A stretch of 64,000 nt of DNA from assembly GCF_014252955.1 (NCBI RefSeq), contig NZ_JACMIA010000001.1:4402001-4466000 (forward strand), written 5' to 3'. Both the position numbers and the translations under genes were made by a program. Shown here one piece after another: positions 35,358 through 39,588 of this stretch. The notes beneath the pieces were generated by a model. It did no database searches and was not told where the DNA came from. It saw nothing but the letters and a program-made list of their open reading frames with translations. How positions within the stretch are numbered: the stretch's first letter is position 1; each line of letters opens with the position of its first letter. The DNA is from Stappia sp. 28M-7 (GTDB lineage: Bacteria; Pseudomonadota; Alphaproteobacteria; Rhizobiales; Stappiaceae).

Positions 35358-35455
35358 AAGCAACCGACGGGTTTGTCTTGAAGGCAAAAAAGGGTTAGGG
35401 CTTTGCCCGCAACCGGGGTCCCGGTGTCCCGGATCACTTGCGAGGCTGCCCTCCC

Positions 35456-36343
35456 ATGACCCTTCGACTGCGAGTCGCGCTCGCCAGCATCTTCGTCGGC
35501 ATCGCCGTCCTCGCGCTGAAATACCTGGCCTATCGGTGGACCGGGTCGGTCGCACTGTATTCCGACGCACTGGAATCGATCGTCAACGTCGCCTCCGCGA
35601 TCGCGGCGTTCCTCGCCGTGTGGTTCGCGGCCAAGCCCGCCGACAGCAATCACCCCTACGGCCACCACAAGGCCGAATACATGGCCGCGGTCCTGGTCGG
35701 CGTGCTCATCGTGCTGGCGGCCCTGTCGATCGGTCACGAGGCCTGGACGAACTATCTCGATCCGCAGCCGGTCGACTTCACGCCGGAGGGCCTGGGAGTC
35801 AACGCGCTCGCCACCGTGCTCAACGGCATCTGGGCCACCGTCCTGGTGCGCATCGGCCGCGGCCACCGCTCCATGGCACTGGTCGCCGACGGCAAGCATC
35901 TCTACACCGACGTCTTCTCCTCGCTCGGCGTGCTGGCCGGCGTCATCCTGGTCATGCTGACCGGCATCCGGGAGCTCGATTCGCTGCTGGCCGGTCTCGT
36001 CGCGCTCAACATCCTGTGGTCGGGCTGGGGCTTGATGAAGGAATCGCTCGGCGGGCTGATGGACGAGGCGGTCGCCCCGGCGCTACAGGATCGCATCCGC
36101 GACGTCATCTCCACCTCGGCGGACGGCGCCATCGAGGCCCATGACCTGCGCACCCGCTCGGCCGGCCATGTCGTCTTCGTGGATTTCCATCTGGTCGTGC
36201 CGGCCGACATGACCGTCGAGCGCGCCCACGACATCTGCGACCGCATCGAGGCGGCGATCTCCAAGGAGGTGCCGGGCGCGCGCACGACGATCCATGTCGA
36301 ACCCGAGCACAAGGCCAAGCATACCGGCATCGTGGTGATCTGA
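35456..36343 (+). CDS. cation diffusion facilitator family transporter
   Basis: This 295-residue inner-membrane divalent metal/proton antiporter starts at ATG 35456; a TTG six codons upstream is less likely. There are five to six hydrophobic segments. Metal-site motifs are YSDALES at 35-41 and DGKHLYTDVFSS in the fifth helix, with the HPYGHHKAEY loop at 66-75. The C-terminal cytoplasmic domain carries the ferredoxin-like dimer fold (HVVFVDFHLVVP). This D..E-type site is close to FieF/MamM-like iron or zinc exporters. The metal is not certain. Confidence 0.87.
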   Translation: MTLRLRVALASIFVGIAVLALKYLAYRWTGSVALYSDALESIVNVASAIAAFLAVWFAAKPADSNHPYGHHKAEYMAAVLVGVLIVLAALSIGHEAWTNYLDPQPVDFTPEGLGVNALATVLNGIWATVLVRIGRGHRSMALVADGKHLYTDVFSSLGVLAGVILVMLTGIRELDSLLAGLVALNILWSGWGLMKESLGGLMDEAVAPALQDRIRDVISTSADGAIEAHDLRTRSAGHVVFVDFHLVVPADMTVERAHDICDRIEAAISKEVPGARTTIHVEPEHKAKHTGIVVI

Positions 36344-36371: not shown

Positions 36372-37586
36372 TCAGCCCGCGCGCTCCGAGATCGCCCGGT
36401 CGAGGGCGGAAAACAGCGCCGCCGGCAGCACCGGCTTTTCCAGCAGCAGATCGAAACCGGCGAGGTCCTCGCGCTCGCGCGCCGAAAGGGTCGCGGCGGT
36501 GATGCCCAGCACCGGCAGTTGGCCCCTGCCCGAGCCTTCCTTCGCGCGGATTTCCGCCAGCGTCTCGATCCCGTCCATGCCGGGCATGTTGATGTCCAGC
36601 AGCACCGCGTCGACCGGCTCGCGCTCCAGCAGCTCCAGCGCCTCGCGCCCGCCGCTCGCCAGCAGCGTGTCGCAGCCGAAGGCGCCGAGCATCGCCTCCA
36701 TCATCTTGCGGTTCGCCTCGTTGTCGTCGACGACCAGCAACCGCCGGCGCACCAGGCAGCGGATGTTCGGCGCCTCGCGCCAGTTGCGGGCGCCGCCGCT
36801 CGCCGCCCGCGCACGCGCGCCCTCGAAGGGACGCAGCGGCAGGCGCAGCGAAAACCGGCTTCCCGCCGGCGAGCTTTCGGCCAGTTCCAGCCGTCCGCCC
36901 TGCGCGACCGCCAGCCGGCTGGCGCTCCACAGTCCGAGCCCGCTGCCGCTCGCCGTGTCGCGGGCAAGCTCACCGCGCCGCCTGGCGCGAAACAGCAGCG
37001 GCCGCTCCTCGTCCGGGATGCCGATGCCGGTATCGGCAAGGCTCAGCTCCAGCGTGCAGGCGCCCCCCTCGTCCCCATCGCCGGAGACGCGGGCGGTGAG
37101 CGCCAGCCCGCCCTCGGCAGTGTATTTCAGCGCATTGTCGTAGAGCACGGACAGGATGCGGCGCAGCGCCAGCGGGTCGGCCACCCGGTAGCCGGACAGC
37201 GCGGCGGCGATGTCGCGCCGCTCGGCAAGGCCGCGCACCCGCGCCTCGGCCGAGAACAGCTCGCACACGGACAGGATATCGGTGGCCGCGTCGCAGGCGT
37301 CCCCGCTGTCCGGCGCCTCGCCGGCGAGCCCCTGGGTCGTCATCGACAGCAGGGCATCTATCGCCATTTCCAGGGTCCGGAGCGCCGAGGCCTGTCGCTG
37401 GGTGGTCGGGTCTGCGCCGATCATCTCGGCCGCCGTGCGCATCGCCGCCAGCGGCGTGCGCAGGTCGTGCAGCAGCACCGCCACCCGGTCGACGGAAGCA
37501 GCCTCCTTGTCGCCGGCATCGGCTGCCGGCCCGGTTGCCGACCCGCCTGTAAGCGCCTCGCCCTGCGGTGCGACCGTTCCGACCAT
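36372..37586 (-). CDS. hybrid histidine kinase without a sensor domain
   Basis: This is a 404-residue soluble protein. The dimerisation/phosphoacceptor box is LLHDLRTPLA with His40, and the ATPase part has YDNALKYT, ADTGIGIP and GSGLGLW. A receiver domain follows from about residue 281, with the phospho-acceptor Asp331 in LLDINMPGMDG. Only about 35 low-complexity residues precede the histidine box, so there is no input domain. Such proteins usually take signals from a partner. No separate response regulator or HPt gene is adjacent. The gene is on the opposite strand to both neighbours. Confidence 0.88.
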   Translation of the reverse strand: MVGTVAPQGEALTGGSATGPAADAGDKEAASVDRVAVLLHDLRTPLAAMRTAAEMIGADPTTQRQASALRTLEMAIDALLSMTTQGLAGEAPDSGDACDAATDILSVCELFSAEARVRGLAERRDIAAALSGYRVADPLALRRILSVLYDNALKYTAEGGLALTARVSGDGDEGGACTLELSLADTGIGIPDEERPLLFRARRRGELARDTASGSGLGLWSASRLAVAQGGRLELAESSPAGSRFSLRLPLRPFEGARARAASGGARNWREAPNIRCLVRRRLLVVDDNEANRKMMEAMLGAFGCDTLLASGGREALELLEREPVDAVLLDINMPGMDGIETLAEIRAKEGSGRGQLPVLGITAATLSAREREDLAGFDLLLEKPVLPAALFSALDRAISERAG

Positions 37587-37712
37587 GATGCCGAATCTCC
37601 TCGCGTCCCCTTGTCTGCCATGGTGCCCGACCTGCCGGGCAAATCAAGCAGACATGACGGACATGCTTGACTGCGACTTGTCGGCGCATCCCGGGCATGC
37701 GAAAGAGCGATC

Positions 37713-38666
37713 ATGGTCGACCAGATCCTCTCCATCGTTCTTCCCGTCTTCGCGCTGATCGGCATCGGCTACGCCGCCGCCCGTTTCGGCGTCCTCGATG
37801 CGAAGGTCGGCGACGCTCTCGGCCAGTTCATCTACGTGATCGCCATTCCCGTGCTGATCTTCCGGACGCTGGCGACCAGCTCCCTCGGCGGCGTCTCGCC
37901 CTGGGGCTTCTGGATCTCCTATTTCACCGGCGTCGCCGTCGTCTGGACCCTCGGCACGGTGATCGTCCGCCACATATTCGGGCGCGAGGCGCGCGCCGGG
38001 GTGATCGCCGGCATCAGCGCCGGCTTTGCCAACACGGTTCTCGTCGGCATTCCCCTGATCACCGCGATCTATGGCGAGGAGGGGCTGGTGCCGCTCTTCG
38101 TGCTGATCTCGATCCACCTGCCGGTGCTGACCATCGTCTGCGCCGTCCTGATGGAGCGGGCCGCCGTGATCGACGGCACCCAGGAGGCCAAGCCCCTGGG
38201 CGAGCTGCTGCTCGGCATCGCCCGCAACCTCGCCACCAACCCGATCGTCATCGGCATCGTCGCCGGCGGCATCTGGCGCGTGACCGGCCTGCCGATCGAA
38301 GGCGTCCTCGCCGACGTGCTTTCGCGCATCGCCGGATCGGCGATCCCGGTTGCCCTGTTTTCGCTCGGCATGAGCATCGTCGCCTACGGCATCCGCGGCA
38401 ATGTCGGTCCCGGCCTGCTGCTCAGCGTGCTGAAGATCGGCGTCATGCCGGCGGTGGTCTATCTGATGGCGGCGCATGTGGTGCACCTGCCGCCCCTGTG
38501 GGTCTCGGTGGCGACCCTCACCGCCGCCTGCCCGACCGGCATCAACGCCTTCCTCTTCGCCAACCGCTACGGCACCGGCCACGCCATGTCGGCGAACTCG
38601 ATCACCATGACGACCGGCCTTGCCGTCGTCTCCACCGTGCTGTGGATGGCGTTCCTCGGGCTTTGA
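37713..38666 (+). CDS. AEC family transporter
   Basis: This 317-residue membrane protein is of the auxin efflux carrier family, with about ten hydrophobic segments in two inverted halves. It starts with ILSIVLPVFALIGIGYAAARFGVLD and has NPIVIGIVAGGIWR in the second half. Family members move malonate, malate or other organic acids and amino-acid precursors. The substrate cannot be read from the sequence. It is divergent from the hybrid kinase and converges with gluQ, whose stop lies 13 bases away. Confidence 0.87.
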   Translation: MVDQILSIVLPVFALIGIGYAAARFGVLDAKVGDALGQFIYVIAIPVLIFRTLATSSLGGVSPWGFWISYFTGVAVVWTLGTVIVRHIFGREARAGVIAGISAGFANTVLVGIPLITAIYGEEGLVPLFVLISIHLPVLTIVCAVLMERAAVIDGTQEAKPLGELLLGIARNLATNPIVIGIVAGGIWRVTGLPIEGVLADVLSRIAGSAIPVALFSLGMSIVAYGIRGNVGPGLLLSVLKIGVMPAVVYLMAAHVVHLPPLWVSVATLTAACPTGINAFLFANRYGTGHAMSANSITMTTGLAVVSTVLWMAFLGL

Positions 38667-38679
38667 AGCTGCACTCCCG

Positions 38680-39588
38680 TCAGGCGCCGCCCGGCGCCAG
38701 CCCGACCAGCCGCCGGATCGTGTCGGGCGTTACTCCCTTGGCCCGCAGCTCGGCCAACGCAGTATCGCCTTGCGACTTCGACAGCTTGCGACCGTCCTCG
38801 CCCAGCACCAGCCGGTGGTGGCGATAGAGCGGCTCGGGCAGGCCGAGCAGCACCTGCAGCAGCCGGTGCACCGCCGTTGCCTCATAGAGGTCGCGCCCGC
38901 GCACCACATGGGTGATGCCCTGCAGCGCATCGTCGACCACAACGGACAGGTGATAGCTCGTCGGCGTGTCCTTGCGCGCCAGCACCACGTCGCCCCAGCG
39001 CGCGGGATCGGCGGCAATGCGCGCCGGCGCCTGCCGGCCCTCGTCGTCCGGCAGCTCTTGCCAGGACAGCGGAGCGGCGAGAAGCGCCTTGCAGCGGGCA
39101 AGCGCCGCCGCCATGTCGAGCCGCAGCGCGAACGGCGCTCCTTGCGCGTCGCGCGCGGCGATCTCCTCAGGCCCCAGCACCGCTTCATCGCCGGGATAGA
39201 GCGGCGCCCCGTCCGGGTCGCACGGCCAGGGCGCGCCGCGCGTCTCCGCCAGCTGCGCCACCGCGCGCGCGATCTCGCCGCGGGTCAGGAATGCCTTGCG
39301 CACCAGCCCCATGGCGGACAGGCGGTCGAGAGCCGCCGCATACTCGGGAAAATGCTCGGATTGCCGGCGCACCGGCTGCTCCCAGTCGAGCCCCAGCCAG
39401 GCCAGATCCTCCAGCACCCCGGCCTCGAGCTCCGGCGTGCAGCGGGTCCGGTCGATGTCCTCGATGCGGATCAGCAGCCGCCCGCCGAGCGCCTTCGCCA
39501 TGCCCGCGTTGAGCAGCGCGGACAGGGCATGACCCAGATGCAGGCGGCCGTTCGGCGAGGGGGCGAAGCGGAGGACGGGTCGGCTCAT
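38680..39588 (-). CDS. gluQ: glutamyl-Q tRNA(Asp) synthetase
   Basis: This 302-residue GluRS paralogue lacks the anticodon-binding domain. It attaches glutamate to queuosine at position 34 of tRNA(Asp). The class I motifs are present: FAPSPNGRLHLGHA at the start (HIGH region) and KLSKSQGD near the C-terminus. The four-cysteine zinc-binding set of E. coli YadB is not evident. A queuosine-precursor transporter gene at 53.4 kb in the same window fits with queuosine use by this organism. Confidence 0.92.
   Translation of the reverse strand: MSRPVLRFAPSPNGRLHLGHALSALLNAGMAKALGGRLLIRIEDIDRTRCTPELEAGVLEDLAWLGLDWEQPVRRQSEHFPEYAAALDRLSAMGLVRKAFLTRGEIARAVAQLAETRGAPWPCDPDGAPLYPGDEAVLGPEEIAARDAQGAPFALRLDMAAALARCKALLAAPLSWQELPDDEGRQAPARIAADPARWGDVVLARKDTPTSYHLSVVVDDALQGITHVVRGRDLYEATAVHRLLQVLLGLPEPLYRHHRLVLGEDGRKLSKSQGDTALAELRAKGVTPDTIRRLVGLAPGGA

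Follow-up and report, generated by a model that had tools for sequence, protein, structure and literature searches.

Beside the kinase gene studied here stand its two conserved neighbors, a divergent gene for an AEC-type (auxin efflux carrier superfamily) transporter and then gluQRS. We consider it fairly probable, reasoning from sequence, that the gene encodes an orphan hybrid histidine kinase, cytosolic and without a sensor of its own, that has been inherited at this AEC/gluQRS locus in Hyphomicrobiales and feeds a phosphorelay. The window, meaning the whole 64-kb stretch of DNA that was analyzed (G000:C1:4402001-4466000), lies within a 5.1-Mb genome, and its closest named DNA relatives, by best segments, are Stappia indica (87% identity) and two Stappia sp. 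(84% and 75%).

Table 1. Features of the kinase locus, with positions counted in the window
Feature	Residues	Position	Strand	Remarks
CDF cation efflux transporter gene		35438..36343	+	convergent, ends 28 bp from kinase
Hybrid histidine kinase gene		36372..37586	-	404 aa, ATG start
Receiver, Response_reg PF00072	284-395	36402..36737	-	71.8 bits, cut-off 30.2
Receiver acceptor Asp	331	36594-36596	-	D in 55/55 locus-linked rows
HATPase_c PF02518	137-252	36831..37178	-	64.7 bits, cut-off 26.4
HATPase_c boxes	N151, D185/G187/G189, G214-G218			residues in place
HisKA PF00512	35-82	37341..37484	-	31.2 bits, cut-off 26.9
Phospho-acceptor His in HisKA	40	37467-37469	-	H in 55/55 locus-linked rows
Gap between divergent kinase and transporter genes		37587..37712	.	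126 bp
AEC-type transporter gene		37713..38666	+	PF03547 126.4 bits, cut-off 25.7
gluQRS, tRNA glutamyl-Q(34) synthetase gene		38680..39588	-	NF004315 381 bits, cut-off 250

Architecture of the kinase

A Pfam search at E<=0.01 returned HisKA, HATPase_c, and a single receiver, and no further family in the 404 residues, in agreement with the first-pass annotation of a hybrid kinase lacking an input domain. The residues of a HisKA-type hybrid kinase are all in place: the phospho-acceptor histidine, the N and G boxes, and, in the receiver, the acidic pair D287 and D288 together with D331, T363, and K384. His40 and Asp331 are indeed the acceptors that had been named. A gap of 31 residues separates the end of HATPase_c from the start of the receiver. 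Output receivers usually carry an aromatic residue three positions before the conserved Lys; in the kinase, where that Lys is K384, the position (residue 381) is occupied by Leu, consistent with a role in a relay.

Upstream of the ATG, 19 in-frame codons contain no ATG, GTG, or TTG and are followed by TGA, 20 codons upstream, so that a longer kinase gene is impossible. The missed upstream start that might have added a sensor domain, a worry raised in the first-pass annotation, is thereby ruled out. None of the 386 19-residue hydropathy windows of the kinase exceeded 1.6 (maximum, 1.19), so we found no membrane-like segment by this measure, compared with 50 of 299 windows in the neighboring transporter, which served as a control. 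By hydropathy the kinase is soluble, as had been proposed. Against four same-genus genomes its dN/dS is 0.255 to 0.332, and the ORF is therefore not a chance one; three neighbor genes gave 0.029 to 0.204, so that among the four genes constraint is weakest on the kinase. An AlphaFold model, built from 40 rows of which 36 were only about 27 to 33% identical, reached a mean pLDDT of 72.6 and a pTM of 0.49. Its pLDDT stayed below 50 for residues 1-31 and near 50 across HisKA, where the model is hence of little value.

All 25 NCBIfam matches listed for the kinase fell far under their curated cut-offs. The best was TorS (149.9 bits), which, like BarA, RcsC, ArcB, and NahK/ErcS, shares the HisKA-HATPase-REC core. 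These five carry sensor domains, and several have further relay domains. By sequence, the nearest solved structure is Caulobacter ShkA (6qrj, E 2.9e-20, query residues 33-274 aligned to chain residues 4-245); a fold search also ranked ShkA first (E 3.6e-18), but with a TM of 0.37 and an rmsd of 15.5 over several domains. Like the window kinase, ShkA is a cytosolic hybrid kinase with its core near the N-terminus and no sensor domain. ShkA is described as being released when c-di-GMP binds its pseudoreceiver (PMC8534201). ShkA has two receivers, the first being this c-di-GMP-binding pseudoreceiver, whereas the window kinase has one; since the site is absent here, the ShkA input is not simply transferable. 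Most likely, the kinase is ordinary in build, of the kind known from ShkA minus the extra receiver.

Locus and lineage in Hyphomicrobiales

The kinase gene is alone on its strand, between a convergent CDF gene and the divergent AEC gene; gluQRS lies tail-to-tail with the AEC gene and is co-directional with the kinase. A search of the 64-kb window with an HK-REC profile (E<=10, frames of at least 60 aa) found no other kinase or receiver, which bears out the earlier statement that the kinase is not in an operon with a response regulator. The AEC transporter scored 92.2 bits against TIGR00946, under the cut-off of 246. For the CDF neighbor the best NCBIfam match was the manganese exporter MntE model (436 bits, cut-off 500), and it is possibly a manganese exporter. 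In the kinase/AEC intergenic region of several same-genus genomes, AATCAAG-like stretches and GCGAAAGAGC recur by eye; the latter lies just ahead of where the transporter gene starts and is possibly its ribosome site.

All 61 genomes in the sample of relatives match the kinase at E<=0.001, many of the listed matches sitting in frames of at least 600 aa that belong to other hybrid kinases. The best match in each of 14 same-genus genomes, the kinase's own included, is 48 to 100% identical. A look for conserved neighbors in relatives, which the first-pass annotation had recommended, gave a positive result, with neighbors that the annotation itself did not name: the divergent kinase/AEC pair is found in 37 of 40 kinase-centered loci that we picked by hand from the best matches (13 same-genus, 23 other Stappiaceae, 4 from other families; 36 thus from the kinase's own family). 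gluQRS lies within the stretch in 37, and AEC and gluQRS are both there in 35, the exceptions being L151 and L154 (no gluQRS), L155 and L157 (no AEC), and L160 (neither). The CDF gene adjoins the kinase in all 13 same-genus loci. Other Stappiaceae keep the kinase/AEC pair in 22 of 23 loci, all 22 without a CDF gene next to the kinase; in L148, a partial match to CDF lies more than 5 kb off. The pair is also kept in two genomes in which gluQRS is far off (about 250 kb in G017) or on another contig (G027). G028 is the exception among other Stappiaceae: AEC and gluQRS stand together without a kinase (L321), and its short kinase (L160) lies where neither is found. We considered whether G028 had lost the kinase together with its AEC copy and rejected the idea, the remaining AEC being about equidistant from both kinds of copy (47 to 51% versus 50%). 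Tandem AEC copies, about 50% identical, occur in three Stappiaceae genomes of genus g6 (L150 3862-5805, L152 7278-9221, and L156 7276-9219, the second copy in L156 being split by a stop). Some relatives have long open frames upstream of the kinase that might be taken for hidden sensors (whole frames of up to 740 aa); the longest of these overlap the transporter gene in antisense, and in 17 of the 40 loci the frame ends no more than 24 codons ahead of the match.

In a search of the order with an AEC alignment, 177 of 247 sampled genomes gave a match at E<=1e-60. From the listed matches we took 40 AEC-centered loci of families other than Stappiaceae (one to four from each), with about 4 kb per side where the contig allowed. 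Eight hold a full divergent kinase (L235, L237, L238, L240, L243, L245, L246, L249), two a kinase placed otherwise (L231, co-directional; L233, 3.6 kb away), and seven a receiver-only gene (L213, L214, L216, L217, L221, L226, L228); in 22, L211 among them, neither a kinase nor a receiver-only gene was found. A receiver at L211, presumably CpdR-like, was not counted, as it lies beyond gluQRS at a distance of 3.5 kb from the AEC gene. At L242 (4996-6075), a 360-aa frame next to AEC and gluQRS sits where the kinase is found elsewhere. It matches the profiles weakly (12 and 10 bits), its pairwise score of 63 does not reach the highest shuffled value (66), and it is a doubtful remnant that could be a decayed kinase. 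The full trio of kinase, AEC, and gluQRS is present in G060 (L322, f25). Elsewhere a kinase of this type comes after gluQRS on the same strand, and no AEC gene separates the two (L155, L157, L192, L195-L200, L204). Further kinases after gluQRS without an intervening AEC gene are at L323, L324, L326 (AEC 2.6 kb beyond), L327, and L330, the last two covering more of the DNA around L192 and L204. At L325 (G195) the kinase is short, and the 10 kb there contain neither of the two neighbor genes.

Across the class, the AEC alignment matched 20 of 289 genomes at E<=1e-70; 17 of these belong to other orders, and in none of their 17 loci was a kinase or receiver found within about 1.5 kb of the AEC gene. 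At this depth, nothing of the arrangement is seen beyond Hyphomicrobiales. A class-wide search with the kinase alignment was swamped by long-frame hybrid kinases. At L301 (1495-3318), outside the order, AEC and gluQRS stand tail-to-tail with no kinase within about 1.5 kb, which suggests that the pair may predate the arrival of the kinase.

We then placed the kinases in a tree of 69 sequences and 372 columns (45 AEC-linked, 10 gluQRS-linked, and 14 others). A branch with 100/99 support parts the 14 others and L231 from the remaining linked kinases, the outside set being small and including one kinase (L002) from the window's own genome. The linked kinases come from 13 families (f1, f3, f7, f13, f21, f31, f33, f36, f37, f40, f42, f45, f46). 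For the AEC label two changes were counted, against gluQRS rows only. Left out were L042-L044 (Stappia) and L121, L123, and L124 (identical, merged); eight of the distant rows L045-L120 were kept and most omitted. Long branches (L240, L159, L246, L235, f42) are placed with little certainty, and Stappiaceae do not form one clade. The co-directional kinase just upstream of AEC at L231 (5092-6192, in one f28 genome) is a generic hybrid kinase and falls among generic kinases. The window gene is not itself a row, and it is by proxy of its same-genus orthologue from G002 (L122, 86% identical), which falls on the linked side, that the window kinase belongs to the AEC/gluQRS-linked sensor-less lineage of Hyphomicrobiales; its own locus likewise has the divergent AEC gene with gluQRS alongside.

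In 55 locus-linked rows (L231 in, the window gene out), admitted only if they matched at least about 250 profile positions, which favors intact kinases, H40, N151, D185, G187, G189, G216, G218, D288, D331, M334, and P385 are invariant. The HDxxT motif has its T44 in 54 rows, and G214 is present in 52 and K384 in 53; Arg replaces K384 in two f42 rows, which we count against the relay reading.

Receiver-only genes at the same place

In the four families with receiver-only genes we picked 20 additional loci, of which 11 have a receiver-only gene and 9 have neither. Taking both locus sets together, a receiver-only gene sits at the AEC-divergent place in 9/9 loci of f20, 4/8 of f27, 3/4 of f14, and 2/9 of f16. 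A receiver tree (99 rows, 129 columns; 13 of 18 receiver-only genes in) has an unsettled bootstrap. In it, eight f20 and f27 rows group with locus-linked receivers (81/86, inner 88/70), f14 joins L235 at 82/8 only, f16 is unplaced, and the linked receivers are spread over more than one group. Position is thus the main evidence that the receiver-only genes descend from the kinase. By eye, f20 and f27 receivers keep Asp and Lys, f14 receivers are without the Lys, and L217 (f16) is without the acidic pair.

MrrA and other alphaproteobacterial single-domain receivers are stand-alone, as are the receiver-only genes at the locus. MrrA is described as a single-domain receiver acting as a hub and carrying a FATGUY motif (PMC5964349). 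The window receiver differs, reading GITAAT around its conserved Thr. We take this to be the place matching the MrrA motif.

Proposed function and alternatives

The architecture suggests a kinase that responds to a partner, a possibility raised in the first-pass annotation. It would dimerize through HisKA, autophosphorylate at His40, and pass the phosphate to its own Asp331, as the intact residues imply. From there the phosphate would probably go to a free phosphotransferase (Hpt or ChpT) and then to a distant response regulator. Indeed, the genome has Hpt at three places (frames of 951, 198, and 149 aa) and a ChpT-type HPTransfase (117.6 bits). Input would have to reach HisKA, HATPase, or the receiver through a partner or a ligand, as it does in Caulobacter ShkA, and the T44 motif suggests an additional phosphatase role.

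A different and attractive source of input would be the AEC transporter itself, with the kinase docking on the carrier and reading transport. There is precedent: the transporter DctA is described as a cosensor of the kinase DcuS (PMC8307970). The persistence of the divergent pair in the kinase-centered loci, also in Stappiaceae outside the genus, where no CDF gene is adjacent, points the same way, but those 40 loci were hand-picked from best matches, the kinase evolves faster than the transporter, and over half of the AEC-centered loci (22 of 40) yielded neither a kinase nor a receiver-only gene. Furthermore, some families have the kinase next to gluQRS with no AEC gene between (L155, L157, L192, L195-L200, L204, L323, L324). 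Among such genomes G061, G176, and G177 are outside the 177 with an AEC match at E<=1e-60, G042 has no AEC match at 1e-50, and G038 and G050 have theirs on another contig. The transporter is thus not an obligate sensor, and we regard this reading as unlikely. Inherited gene order without functional meaning is a more serious prospect, one that we place somewhat short of probable. gluQRS has no evident signaling link, and the AEC/gluQRS pair of L301 exists outside the order with no kinase nearby; yet in Stappiaceae the kinase/AEC pair survived while the CDF side changed, and it persists in G017 and G027 away from gluQRS.

Receiver-only genes in four families hint at a receiver that serves as the output instead of passing phosphate on: it would bind protein and be set by its own kinase part, and stand-alone versions left by loss of that part would be phosphorylated by other kinases. 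The f20 and f27 rows among locus-linked receivers and the hub MrrA (PMC5964349) speak for this, but f14 and f16 are not placed in the receiver tree, their residue losses tell against it, and the receiver-only genes may be separate arrivals of unrelated receivers. We hold it to be rather unlikely. Quite unlikely in our estimate is a Hyphomicrobiales transporter-linked signaling locus that would join a sensor-less kinase, or the bare receiver left when its kinase part is lost, to AEC, with the receiver as output and the carrier or its substrate as input. A receiver that does no more than draw off phosphate from some other pathway, the sink raised in the first-pass annotation, seems improbable. 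An orphan kinase with one receiver and no output domain could serve as such a sink, but a sink needs no ATP-binding domain; complete boxes, purifying selection, and the near-invariant T44 fit a working kinase/phosphatase better. The phosphorelay kinase inherited at the locus remains the reading we prefer.

In titles and abstract openings, covering in part only the top-ranked matches, we found no description of a kinase/AEC/gluQRS locus. For most orphan hybrid kinases of the cytosol, to our knowledge, the input has yet to be identified. The recurring locus with its receiver-only versions is the part worth specialist attention and is modestly interesting. A lineage whose neighbors recur over several families is a concrete handle on what sensor-less kinases sense, and receiver-only genes at the same place elsewhere are a handle on the relay versus output role of the kinase's receiver.
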